This document shows, piece by piece, positions 6,963-61,715 of a stretch of 64,000 nt of DNA. The DNA lies in NCBI GenBank assembly GCA_030141605.1, contig JAQGDQ010000008.1, forward strand, positions 12,501-76,500, given 5' to 3'. The notes under the pieces were generated by a model. It was not told where the DNA came from. It saw nothing but the letters and a program-made list of their open reading frames with translations, and searched no databases. Origin of the DNA: Tubiluchus corallicola (lineage: Eukaryota; Priapulida; Priapulimorpha; Priapulimorphida; Tubiluchidae). The stretch's first letter is position 1. Each line of letters starts with the position of its first letter. Both the position numbers and the translations under genes were made by a program.

Positions 6963-13200
<6,238 letters not shown>

Positions 13201-26140: not shown

Positions 26141-26260
26141 CACTACGGCCAAATCACGTTGAAAACACCGGTTCTCGTCTGATCACCGAAGTTAAGAAAC
26201 GTAGAGCCTGGTTAGTACTTGGATGGGTGACCGCCTAGGAATACCAGGTGCTGTAGGCTT
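26141..26260 (+). rRNA. 5S rRNA-like domain (head of a SINE, not a functional 5S gene)
   Basis: The 120 nt begin CACTACGGCC and end GTGCTGTAGGCTT, the exact length and order of animal 5S rRNA. Recognisable blocks are CACCGGTTCTCGTC, GATCACCGAAGTTAAG, the box C region GGATGGGTGACCGCC and the closing stem. A number of substitutions relative to a typical 5S and the fused downstream body show that it is a SINE promoter head. The internal pol III promoter elements look largely intact. Confidence 0.85.
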
Positions 26261-31880: not shown

Positions 31881-32377
31881 CATTGAAAAACCTTCCCCTG
31901 ACCAGCTTATACGCAGAAGAGACCGCAACTTTCCTATTTTATGTAATTACTGTCTTCAATAATTCATAAAATAACGTAGTTTTATACAGAATGAACCGCT
32001 GAATTCTGATCTTTAGAAACAAGATTACGTCCGACACGAAGCACTGTACACAAAGATTATCTGTTGCGTTACTGCAGTATAGCAACCAAAGTTAGTTCAT
32101 AAACACAAACTAATAAACTGTCACACAATAAAGAGAAATTGAAAAATAAGAGGTTTCAATGCACACAAGTATGTTATGTGAATAACAAAAACTAACAAAA
32201 AAAATCAAAAAACAGAAAATAATACTAATAACGTTTAACACAGTACTAACACAAAAAACATACTGCACAGCAAAACAATAAACAAAAAACCACAGAATCA
32301 TAGGAATAACTTATGACTATGATATGCACTACAACATGATTGTATTGCTACTGATATACTTATATTTTGTTCTTCTC

Positions 32378-32703
<326 letters not shown>

Positions 32704-41100: not shown

Positions 41101-41157
41101 AATCTCTCTTTCCCCTCTCTGCCTCCCTTCCTCGCCTCCTCCCCACTCTCTTTCTCT

Positions 41158-41158
41158 G

Positions 41159-41249
<91 letters not shown>

Positions 41250-41350
41250 CTCTATCTCTATCTCTATCTCTCTCTCCTTTTCTCTATCTCTCCTTCATTC
41301 CCCCTCTTTTCTCTTTTTATCTCTCTTTTCTGTCTCTCTCAATTTCTCAC
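41158..41350. repeat. (CT)n microsatellite and CT-rich flank
   Basis: A clean (CT)n run from about 41160 to 41247, then (CTCTAT)n variants and CT-rich sequence. It directly follows the dispersed repeat at 40965-41100, as a tail-nucleated microsatellite would. Confidence 0.92.
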
Positions 41351-47869: not shown

Positions 47870-49210
47870 GCCTGCTTGATTGATTAGGTACGGTTTTCCT
47901 TTAAAATTCCCCTTTCTTCCCCTTTAACAAACATATTCTGCAGTGTAAAGCAGACGCAAACCTTCCCACAAACGTCTTTTTCTTACCTATCCTCTTCCAC
48001 TTATCACATCACTCAAAATAAAAATTACGGACATTCATTGCCACGTCCGTTGGATTTAGTTAGCGTTAGCATACAAATACAAATAGCTTTAACAATACGT
48101 TTTACTACAAAGTCAAACGCATCTTTGTTTCCACGTTGCAGTAATAGCTTGATATAATGGGATTTTAAAGATGACTTTTCCTGCCCTGGGATGATGCAGA
48201 ACAAAAGTGGAGAGACGCTTTTCCAATCATATTTGTGTAATCCCCAAAGCTTTAGCACTTCTGGGGTTTTTGAGAAGCTTCAAGTGACTGGATTTGTCAC
48301 TTCCGGCTTTGACTTAATCTGATGAACAATAACAATTTTGCAAGAATTAAGCCAGTGAGGTAAATTATAACTTTAAAGTTTAGGAAGCCAAGTTTACTAA
48401 AGAATTAAGCCAAAGAGATAAATTTTCGGTCAGTTAATAATGTGATTTTCGTGACACTAGTTTAGGATAAAGAGATTCTGTTTTGCTTTGTTCTATCACT
48501 TTTATGCAAAAAGTAGCTTTGCTTGAACCCTTAAACTGGCGATTAATCACAAATTAGAGACTTTTAATTGATACAAACGAAATTGCTAAAATTTCTTGGT
48601 TAGGTCTCCTTCTTGTATAAATGTTAATCCTCAAATACGTTTTGTTGTTACTAAGCCTGCTTATCTTGCAATCCTGCATAATTCCCTGCACTAATACTTA
48701 ATGCCCTGCACTAATTCACTACACTGGTTTTAGTTTGCACATGTCTGTTTTTGAGTTTTGACGAATGAACATTTGCTTGCTGTGAAAAGAATGCTGAGAA
48801 GAAATGTGACTGAAGGATATGTCTCTAATTTCAAACTTGCAGTTTAATTTAAGAATCATACAAATGGTGCATTTATTGAAATGTAAATGCTACAGTTTAG
48901 TTTATCCAAATCTATTAGTGACAGTTCAATGGTTTTCTGAAACTTGCATGTTCAGGAAAAAGACGATTACTGAAAAAGCCTGATTATTAATTATACTTGG
49001 GCTATAAATACTTCAATTTGAAGCCGTTGTAAATGTTAACTTTCCGTTTTCTCGCTTTTCCAAAGGCTTTCTTCGAAAACAATCACCGAGAAAACATGCC
49101 AAAAATAACAGTAAATGCACAGTAAAAATGGCACACGAAAAATGGCCCAGGAAAAAAGACACCTTATAAAATATGATTTTTAGGGTTGGGGTTGCTGCAG
49201 GGGATAATTA
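47870..49210. other. no gene seen
   Basis: AT-rich DNA. The phrase GAATTAAGCCAxxGAGxTAAAT occurs twice (about 48345 and 48403) as a short direct repeat. Confidence 0.4.
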
Positions 49211-49214
49211 CTTT

Positions 49215-49400
49215 AAGTATTTTTACCTCTGCCAAAGAAATTGCTTCCACGCTGTTTGTTTGTTTGGTTGGTTGTTTTCTGTCTGTTATATACATAGCAG
49301 TAAACGTATTAAGAAAAAACTCCGTAACAGATTTCCACGAAACTTTGTGGAGACGGGTGGTTAGGGAACAAGAAAATGCATTTTGACGCAGATTCGTGGT
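49215..49400 (+). mobile_element. copy of a widespread CCAAAGAAATTG/TTTGTTTG interspersed repeat
   Basis: The order TTTTACCTCTGCCAAAGAAA, TTTGTTTGTTTGG, AAAAAACTCCGTAACAGATT, CACGAAACTTTGTGGAGACG matches a repeat type I know from many marine invertebrate and fish genomes (TTACxTCCGCCAAxGAGGTTATG...TTTGTTTG...GGATTTxxATGAAAxTTxGTGG). Open frames across it on both strands are repeat artefacts. Confidence 0.55.
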
Positions 49401-50039
49401 AAGGGAGGGGGTGAAAACTGCCAAAATGGACGCTTTTGGACTGCATTTTTTTCACAAACAATTCGCAGAACACCACGTACAAAAGTATTTGTGAAGCACT
49501 TCATGGTAATCTCACATCGATAGTTATAGCTCCTTGGAAAGATGAGGACTTGACTACAAGACAGGTTAATTCTTTTTCATTACCACCACCTGGACTAAAA
49601 ACTACGAGTTAGTTCCAGGTTCCATTTCGAGTAACTCTTGCTTGGAAAACTGTGTAACGCCGTATATAATTTTCGTTTATACATATAGCCCTATAAGCAG
49701 ACTTAGTATGAAGATACATATATTTGTCAGTCTGTAACCATCACCAAATGATAGAAGAAATATAGACAAACACCGTGTGGAAGCTTCGTGCATTATCGAT
49801 TAAAATAATTTTGCAAGTCTATATAATACTTACACAGGTATATTTTTCTTGTTTATCTTTGTCTTATGTTTTTTTCGATCAAACGAATCGCACGAACATG
49901 TTTAGGATTTTTTGAGTCGGAGATCTGCCTCCTCCTGAGCGCATTAAGTTTTATTTTAGAAATTATTTGCATTAAATGTGAAATTTTTACCTGTGCCTTT
50001 TTACTTACATTCAAAAATTACACACAAAGTTATTGACAT

Positions 50040-53408: not shown

Positions 53409-53639
53409 ATATAGATATAGATATAGATATAGATATAGATATAGATATAGATATAGATATAGATATAGATATAGATATAGATATAGATATAGATATAGAT
53501 ATAGATATAGATATAGATATAGATATAGATATAGATATAGATATAGATATAGATATAGATATAGATATAGATATAGATATAGATATAGATATAGATATAG
53601 ATATAGATATAGATAGACTACTTCGGACAGTCGCCGAAG
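53409..53639. repeat. (ATATAG)34 hexamer array ending at a 6-bp hairpin
   Basis: About 34 near-perfect ATATAG hexamers run to 53615. Directly right is CTTCGG ACAGTCG CCGAAG (53621-53639), a 6-bp stem with a 7-nt loop. Read on the minus strand this is a hairpin followed by a microsatellite tail, as at the 3' ends of some LINEs and SINEs. Confidence 0.9.
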
Positions 53640-56530: not shown

Positions 56531-56536
56531 CAGATC

Positions 56537-56718
56537 ATGAAATCGTTGACGACAGTTATGTTGGCGGGCGTGGTTATGGCAGTTGTTTTATTAACAGCGG
56601 ACGCAGAGGAGGGAATGCCCACACCGCCGCTCAGACCATCATTGTTTAGAAGTCCAAACGACTTGAGGGACTACTTACAGAAGTTGAACGAATATTACGC
56701 GATAGTGGGTCGACCGAG
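56537..56718 (+). CDS. NPF: prepro-neuropeptide F (NPY/NPF family), signal peptide and mature peptide exon
   Basis: The exon begins at 56534 after TTTTTCTTTTCAG; ATG follows at 56537. I reject the more upstream in-frame ATG at 56474 because it lies before the acceptor. Residues 1-23 (MKSLTTVMLAGVVMA and on to ADA) form a signal peptide. The mature peptide starts EEGMPTPPLRP and ends DYLQKLNEYYAIVGRPR, with a PP-fold Pro-rich arm and an amphipathic helix. Lymnaea and Aplysia NPY/NPF share this length (39-40 residues) and the NEYYAIxGRPRF-amide end. The exon stops at 56718 inside the penultimate residue's Arg codon (AG|GTAAGA, phase 2), exactly the intron position conserved in NPY-family genes. 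The next exon should supply F-G-K-R and the C-flanking peptide; I did not find it up to 64000. The hormone acts outside neurons on G-protein-coupled receptors in feeding and growth control. Confidence 0.93.
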
Positions 56719-56726
56719 GTAAGAAA
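56719..56726 (+). other. NPF: phase-2 donor of the NPF exon
   Basis: GTAAGAAA directly follows CGACCGAG. Reading through would hit TAA at once (AGG TAA), so splicing is needed to make the amidated C-terminus. Confidence 0.85.
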
Positions 56727-56728
56727 AT

Positions 56729-56890
56729 GGACTTATCAGGGAGGGGGCCGCTTACCGAAGTTCAACAAATATTATGCAATAGTCAGTGGTCAGATTTACG
56801 CAATAGTTGGTCGACCGTAAACACTAAGCAACTAGTGTTTGAGGGACTACTTATAGAATTTGAGCGAGTGTTGTCTAGTAGTCCGTCATC
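56729..56890 (+). pseudogene. decayed tandem copies of the NPF exon 3' half, inside the NPF intron
   Basis: Copy A (56729-56785) has GACTTATCAGGGA, then CTTACCGAAGTTCAACAAAT and ATTATGCAATAGT against the exon's CTTACAGAAGTTGAACGAAT and ATTACGCGATAGT; in the homologous frame it reads LPKFNKYYAIV. Copy B (56793-56817) repeats ATTTACGCAATAGT and then TGGTCGACCG but lacks the AG of the donor. Copy C (56839-56890) matches again with TTGAGGGACTACTTATAGAA and TTTGAGCGAGTGTT. Each segment differs at roughly one position in six. None has a working acceptor and donor, so they are relics rather than alternative exons. Their order suggests at least two rounds of unequal duplication. Confidence 0.8.
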
Positions 56891-56939
56891 TGCTGTATTG
56901 CTGTATATAATCAAATTATTGGTTATAATATGAGGAGTG

Positions 56940-59329: not shown

Positions 59330-60160
59330 TACATTAGATTAGATTACATCAGATCAGATCGGATCACGTCAGAAATATTGTTTTCTGATCCGTTCTGAGC
59401 TATGCTGAGCTGAGCGGAGCAGAGCAGATTAGAGCATAGCAGATCAGATCAGATCAGTTTAGATTAGATTGAAGCGGATTGGATTGAATAGAATTGGATT
59501 GGGTTGGGTTGGATTGCATTGCATTGGACTGGACTGGGAAGGACTGTACTGAACAAAACTAGACTGGACTGGATTGGACTGATATGGACTGGATTGGATT
59601 GGATTAAATTAGATTAGATTGGATTGGATTGGATTGGATTGGTTTGGTTTGGATTGGACTGGACTGGACTGGACTGGACTGGACTGGACTGGACTGGACT
59701 GGACTGGACTGGACTGGACTCGACTCGACTCGACTAGACTAGACTAGACTAGACTAGACTAGACTAGACTAGACTAGACTAGACTAGACTAGACTAGACT
59801 AGATTAGATTAGATTAGATTAGATTAGATTAGATTAGATTAGATTAGATTAGATTAGATTATTAGATTAGATTAGATTAGATTAACTTGGATTGGGTTGG
59901 ATTGGATTGGACTGAATTGGATTGGATTGGATTGGTTGGATTGGATCGAATCGGATCGGATCGGATCGGATCGGATCGGATCGGATCGGATCGGATCGGA
60001 TCAGATCAGATCAGATCAGATTACGTCACGTTAGTCTAGCTAGGCTAAGCTAGGCTAAATCCAACCCAACCCAATCCAGTCCAGTCCAGTTTAGTCCAGT
60101 GCAGTGCGGTCCAGTCCAATATAATGCAATACAATCCAACCCAACCCAATCCAATCCTAG
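59330..60160. repeat. palindromic mosaic of pentanucleotide blocks
   Basis: Blocks of 5-bp units follow one another: GATCA/GATTA (59330-59480), GGATT, GGACT (about 59656-59720), CGACT (59721-59735), AGACT (to about 59800), AGATT (to about 59885), GGATT (to about 59945), CGGAT (to about 60002), CAGAT (to 60020). Each block differs from its neighbour by about one base. The complementary strand version appears at 60058-60160; arm 60109-60154 is the inverted copy of 59493-59536 (TTGGATTGGGTTGGGTTGGA). Confidence 0.92.
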
Positions 60161-61280: not shown

Positions 61281-61284
61281 AATA

Positions 61285-61715
<431 letters not shown>

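Follow-up and report, generated by a model that had tools for sequence, protein, structure and literature searches.

Decayed tandem copies of half an NPF exon at the start of its own presumed intron in the priapulid Tubiluchus corallicola

In the priapulid Tubiluchus corallicola, the 3′ half of an exon encoding an NPF neuropeptide is followed on the same strand, immediately behind its 5′ splice site, by two decayed copies of itself. The homology of these copies to the exon, their order, their decay and the direction in which the changes took place are established in the following, and the array is, in all likelihood, a neutral relic of a tandem duplication of part of an exon. According to this reading, a segment of about 60 bp, made up of the exon's 3′ half and its 5′ splice site, would have been copied twice, head to tail, probably by slippage or unequal exchange, which would have placed the copies within 180 nt of the start of the following intron. 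They would since have decayed under no constraint that could be detected, the exon itself being conserved, and would now yield no product and have no function. The pre-mRNA would be spliced from the donor at 56719 to an FGKR exon about 10.3 kb further on, leading to an NPF that ends in RPRF-amide. The animal is probably not affected by the array. All coordinates refer to the window, i.e. the whole stretch of 64,000 nucleotides that was analysed, which is part of a 1.70-Mb contig (JAQGDQ010000008.1) in a 343.5-Mb genome.

The NPF exon and its presumed gene

The exon (C0) and the stop codon behind it are the following, a slash marking here and below a splice boundary:

56535 to 56718, + strand: NPF exon C0, with the acceptor TTTTCTTTTCAG/ATC, an ATG at 56537, a signal-peptide-like leader and NPF through the Arg of RPR/F
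56720 to 56722, + strand: TAA stop, by translation the first codon on read-through from C0 (AGG TAA)

Upstream of C0 a polypyrimidine tract and CAG are found. The leader, MKSLTTVMLAGVVMAVVLLTADA, is hydrophobic and signal-peptide-like as judged by eye, and it is followed by the peptide EEGMPTPPLRPSLFRSPNDLRDYLQKLNEYYAIVGRPR and by a strong donor. An NPY/NPF neuropeptide gene is indicated by the match of C0 to Pfam PF00159 (pancreatic hormone peptide; E = 4.2e-12, 46.3 bits, above the cut-off of 28.7), by the phase-2 intron and, via the candidate partner exon described below, by an RF-Gly-dibasic end. With two terminal residues appended to the C0 query, the PF00159 match reaches E = 3.3e-15, and the same query matches an NPF structure in the PDB, 1k8v, with E = 5.8e-6. 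The donor, GAG/GTAAGA at 56719, is of phase 2 and scores 10.5, a value attained by 0.11% of the 3501 GTs of the window; this set is the reference for all donor scores given here, which are approximate matrix scores. The phase-2 intron interrupts the codon for the final Arg of RxRF, the donor being placed after GRP-AG at 56718 and the candidate acceptor giving AG/A at 67026, and the available text of PMC8536682 and PMC6585902 describes this position as conserved across NPF/NPY genes.

A pattern for the partner exon has no match on the + strand within the window, and three matches when the stretch up to 104000 is considered:

67026, + strand: RFGKR, pyrimidine tract 83%
95205 (L004 1205), + strand: RYGKR, pyrimidine tract 74%, possibly a chance match
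99379, + strand: RYGR, pyrimidine tract 43%

The first, R/FGKR, which lies 3.0 kb beyond the window end in window coordinates, is the nearest and the best of the three and, on its sequence, a good candidate for the partner. Its acceptor is good, and the joined reading would complete GRPR-FG-KR-NNDYFTDNYNDWYYDRV. If the predicted splice from C0 is made, the product would read ...GRPRFGKRNNDY..., with the RF-Gly-dibasic end for amidation, and the intron would measure 10,307 nt if the exon at 67026 is indeed the partner.

The exact string YYAIVGRPRF occurs in the literature, going by the titles of the articles, mostly in molluscs and once in a xenacoelomorph, and the C0 peptide looks lophotrochozoan rather than arthropod in type, a likeness that does not amount to proof. 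The window NPF is identical to none of the six mollusc rows compared (of seven) in Table 5 of PMC4208409, the best being Lottia with 26/35; the second NPF of this genome (see below) was compared with the rows of the same table by eye only.

As for the rest of the window, a Pfam search with 10 reading frames at E 0.1 gave matches for two only, namely the NPF exon and a frame at 49164–49451 on the minus strand (AzlC, E = 0.025, below the family cut-off). The window's only Rfam match at gathering score is a full-length 5S rRNA match (RF00001, 102 bits) at 26141–26259 on the + strand, either a gene or part of a mobile element; no tRNA was found in the window, and a viral_contigs search returned no relatives. 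Long simple-repeat arrays occupy 53409–53615, 13006–13150, 32374–32700, 41146–41292, 59476–60001 and 61282–61715, and include ATATAG in 34.5 copies at 100% matches and GGATT in about 106 copies.

Two decayed copies behind the donor

The source segment, the two copies (C1 and C3) and the repeats associated with them are listed below:

56663 to 56722, + strand: source segment, comprising the exon's 3′ half and the donor, as delimited by similarity; the left edge is clear for C3 and less so for C1
about 56740 to 56819, + strand: C1, first decayed copy, with strong similarity from 56751 (0/5000 shuffles; blastn 9.9e-6 and 4.2e-4)
56772 to 56819, + strand: 24-nt internal repeat in C1 (56772–56795 and 56796–56819), 16/24 identical
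56818 to 56841, + strand: inverted repeat AACACTA...TAGTGTT in the C1–C3 spacer, a hairpin (z −3.97, 1/200 shuffles) with an 8-bp stem (7/150 shuffles), picked post hoc
56839 to 56896, + strand: C3, second decayed copy, gapless, at an offset of 176 from C0 (blastn E = 2.8e-6 for 56839–56867)
56877 to 56888, + strand: 12 nt complementary at 11/12 to TGAGGGACTACT of C3 (56840–56851) and of C0 (56664–56675) (3/150 shuffles; z −3.05, 2/200), picked post hoc

The initial annotation had reported three segments right behind the NPF donor that match the helix-coding half of the exon, and had named a self-alignment no better than shuffled sequence of the same composition as grounds for rejecting it. 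The match is borne out, all three segments exceeding every one of the 5000 dinucleotide shuffles made of each: in local alignments against the exon, 56741–56794 scores 25 (shuffle maximum 14), 56795–56822 scores 18 (maximum 12) and 56823–56900 scores 24 (maximum 15), with 0/5000 shuffles as high in each case. The flanks are at chance, the score of the next 200 nt being equalled by 4750/5000 shuffles and that of the preceding 200 nt by 1396/5000, and the copy region, with a score of 26, stands above the best score (15) among 700 further tiles of 180 nt drawn from both strands of the window. Within the presumed intron of 10,307 nt, blastn finds 29 nt at 90% (2.8e-6), 33 nt at 85% (9.9e-6) and 22 nt at 91% (4.2e-4), and its fourth-best match has E = 0.063, while a gapless repeat finder returns 60 nt at 72% and at 62%, and 22 nt at 91%. 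Two probe patterns were built from the copies: the first, with 3 mismatches, hits C0 and C3 alone, an equal number of matches being found in 2/100 shuffles; the second hits C0 and C1 alone, with 0/100 shuffles giving as many. The 501-bp region, when searched in the 343.5-Mb genome at E <= 0.001, has itself as its single match.

That the similarity is due to chance, or the array to an assembly artefact, has an exceedingly small probability of being right. In its favour, the array behind C0 is missing from the output of Tandem Repeats Finder at score 30, and the resemblance is weak at the peptide level (tblastn with the peptide gives E = 0.021 at best). The C1 peptide matches no Pfam family at 0.1. 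Chance is contradicted by the shuffles of every segment, and an artefact by a divergence of about 23–30% with private changes, unlike collapsed or repeated reads, and by the position of the region in the interior of the 1.7-Mb contig.

Some details of the array differ from those first given. All three segments match the exon, but they are best counted as two copies, since the middle one, 56796–56817, is best read as part of an in-frame 24-nt repeat inside C1. An identity of about five positions in six describes the cores well, but over 53 aligned columns it drops to 40–41/53 for C1 and 37/53 for C3. A start at 56729 is 11–22 nt too early, the similarity of C1 being strong from 56751 and weak perhaps from 56740, and C3 can be traced 6 nt beyond the reported end of 56890, to the position of the donor.

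C1 carries two in-frame indels, the 24-nt gain and a loss of 3 nt, after which a GT remains in the same phase. Its frame is open, reading GGGRLPKFNKYYAIVSGQIYAIVGRP up to a TAA at 56818–56820, and its donor is reduced to ACC/GTAAAC at 56817, with a score of 0.8 versus 10.5 in C0. C3 has an in-frame nonsense codon, TAG, at 56854–56856, and the position of its donor, at 56895, is occupied by GCT/GTATTG, which scores −1.3 versus 10.5 in C0. The tail of C3 by itself is weaker, with 14/28 matches, equalled by 82/20000 shuffles. The start of C3 clearly corresponds to position 56663 of the exon, and that of C1 to the same point or to one somewhat inside. Since the spacers between the copies exhibit no detectable mutual homology (3830/5000 shuffles score as high, although with about 20 nt the test is weak either way), a cleanly repeated head-to-tail unit of about 77 bp is no more than putative.

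Direction and tempo of decay

Over the 53 aligned columns, C1 has 10 private differences and C3 13–14, as compared with 1–2 in C0, the ranges in these counts reflecting two placements of the C1 internal repeat. Relative-rate comparisons give p = 0.012–0.039 for C0 versus C1 and p = 0.001–0.007 for C0 versus C3. C1 and C3 differ from each other at 24–25 sites, when 23–24 would be expected if each had departed independently from a nearly unchanged C0.

A search of the genome with PF00159 gave five matches, two of which are above the cut-off: the exon in the window and a second NPF gene. The weak candidates L009 and L011 looked unrelated on reading by eye.

C1252:33429–33524 (L007 1501–1596): second NPF gene, VPPVRPIVFKSADQLRDYLRKLNEYYAVVGRPR/GTAATAA, PF00159 above cut-off, with AGG TAA TAA on read-through

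Where C0 and C1 differ, this paralogue agrees with C0 at 7–8 sites, with C1 at one and with neither at four; where C0 and C3 differ, it agrees with C0 at 12 sites, with C3 at two and with neither at four. As the paralogue shares the coding constraint of C0, it indicates that C0 has kept the state of the family, but it is not an unbiased outgroup. Taken together, the counts of private changes and the agreement with the paralogue identify C0 as the source and place the changes in the copies. The paralogue exon has no copies of its own in the 600 nt downstream or the 300 nt upstream, and no partner exon of the FGKR type was found for it up to the end of its contig. In both paralogues, the unspliced phase-2 junction AG/GTAA reads AGG TAA, and a retained intron leads to a stop directly after RPR.

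No coding constraint is detected in the copies. The non-synonymous counts of C1 and C3 lie inside those of a neutral simulation (0.15–0.58 of the runs at or below the observed value), and an open frame, such as that of C1, is found in 45–51% of the indel-free neutral runs. In the core of C1, the proportion of sites changed is 0.10 for non-synonymous versus 0.24–0.35 for synonymous ones, equally few non-synonymous changes occurring in 15–33% of the neutral runs. Adjacent homology on the same strand, changes that fall on the copies and no coding constraint, which characterize a decayed tandem duplication of part of an exon, are all observed here. The earlier proposal that NPF exon material was duplicated in tandem and decayed inside its own gene is supported by the homology, the relative rates and the paralogue.

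Splicing potential of the copies

The same proposal went further and regarded the array as a record of failed mutually exclusive exons, a reading that the layout of the locus speaks against. Only the 3′ half of the exon and the donor were copied, the start codon and the leader being confined to the half that was not duplicated. From the C0 donor to the start of C1 there are 21–32 nt, a distance that would generally not accommodate an intron. The sole acceptor-like site before C1, TCAG/GGA before 56740, is of phase 0 versus phase 2 of the C0 donor. Thus, full-length copies with their own 3′ and 5′ splice sites and matching intron phases, which define mutually exclusive exons, are not found, and a cassette of the NPF1b type is at variance with the same short gap, the stops in both copies and the weak donors. 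Nor was an intact second helix exon found elsewhere up to 67025 by tblastn, blastn and tiling. With no usable acceptor, a short gap, a clash of phases, weak donors, an uncopied leader and a stop on read-through (TAA at 56720–56722), use of the copies as exons, whether mutually exclusive or as a cassette, looks impossible in the present layout. That they are relics of mutually exclusive exons that once worked is very unlikely, notwithstanding the tandem arrangement of exon sequence in the same orientation and the frame of C1 that is still open.

The copied donors deserve separate consideration, as they could, at most, give rise to a truncated, non-amidated product. It is conceivable, but quite unlikely, that the copies once formed an array of alternative 5′ splice sites, in which competing donors lowered the output of the gene by way of a truncated non-amidated peptide (GRPR, then stop), and that this role was later lost. 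Consistent with such a past, the donor is within the copied segment, a GT persists at both equivalent positions (56817 and 56895), and the loss at the C1 donor, as aligned, is of exactly 3 nt, so that the phase is kept. However, both sites are ordinary today: 31% and 53% of the 3501 GTs of the window score as high.

Donor choice could also be influenced by RNA structure, if TGAGGGACTACT of C0 and of C3 competed for pairing with 56877–56888 in a manner resembling selector and docking sequences. The complementarity of 11/12 (3/150 shuffles), the hairpin (z −3.05) and the folding of the whole copy region (z −2.2, 7/200 shuffles) are in line with this idea, as is a published model, set out in the accessible part of PMC6071210, which derives such pairs from duplication. 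The stretches were, however, selected after the fact, and the second usable exon among which a choice would have to be made is missing, which leaves this mechanism most improbable.

The open frame of C1, its two in-frame indels and the two hairpins that fold better than shuffles also count against a neutral relic, as do the lower proportion of non-synonymous change in the C1 core, the spacers with no mutual homology detected and a partner exon that is one among three pattern matches; the relic nevertheless remains the preferred reading. The arrangement would have been tolerated for two reasons: the original donor, which is strong, is still the first in line, and the phase-2 AG/GTAA junction brings its own stop (AGG TAA) on read-through.

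Comparison with known systems

Tandem exon duplication and mutually exclusive exons, as treated in the available text of PMC9013439 and PMC6071210, likewise involve head-to-tail copies of an exon on the same strand in the adjacent intron; in the present case, however, half an exon is involved, it comes without an acceptor and is decayed, and a usable second exon was not found. A different fate of copied exon segments is the gain of an intron through tandem genomic duplication of AGGT-bearing exon segments (PMC3443670, accessible text), which resembles the T. corallicola array in that an exon piece with a donor-like AGGT is copied in tandem, but differs from it in that here the copied donor is placed within an intron that was already present, and an additional intron is not apparent. 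Decayed NPF pieces are described for abalone in the accessible text of PMC8536682 (e1, e2 and e4, with frameshifts), so that NPF exon copies with a lost frame are found in a mollusc as well. There, two NPF genes share a scaffold and several exons are represented among the likenesses of the pieces, whereas in T. corallicola half an exon was copied within one intron.

The initial annotation had drawn attention to arthropods, some of whose NPF genes were said to have alternative exons. The optional NPF1b exon of arthropods is placed by the available portion of PMC4237046 between two others in termite, silk moth, Daphnia, locust and more. A penaeid NPF transcript contains an insertion of 37 residues, according to PMC6389622. 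In the NPF2 of the shrimp Lysmata vittata, as given in the accessible text of PMC7212414, the 37 residues after the first SRP align to the preceding half of the NPF helix with a score of 56, versus 17.9 +/- 3.7 for shuffles, 0/5000 of which score as high. Judging from its length and place, this stretch would be the product of the optional exon, an identification that PMC7212414 itself does not make, and, if so, the working arthropod exon has the look of a second copy of this half exon; in the available text of the literature searched, the optional exon is not mentioned as a repeat of the helix half. The two cases are alike in that they concern the same gene family and an optional exon that sits between two others in arthropods, but NPF1b is a spliced cassette, whereas C1 and C3 are fragments that cannot be spliced. 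C1 and C3 show a far greater similarity to the exon from which they derive, and the duplication in T. corallicola is hence most likely independent of the arthropod one. A more general idea, i.e. that in separate lineages the helix half is prone to be copied into the beginning of the NPF intron, where the copy would have become NPF1b in arthropods and would have decayed here, with C1 perhaps being the remnant of a copy once in use, is advanced as a speculation that is unlikely to hold.

Concluding remarks

The array behind the NPF exon of T. corallicola allows a dissection of how sequence from which alternative exons might be made originates and comes to nothing, the parent exon and a paralogue being readable together with the changes private to each copy. 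Furthermore, the printed sequence of a shrimp suggests that the working NPF1b insert of arthropods may have arisen as a repeat of the helix half, in which case a successful and a failed duplication could be compared within one gene family.
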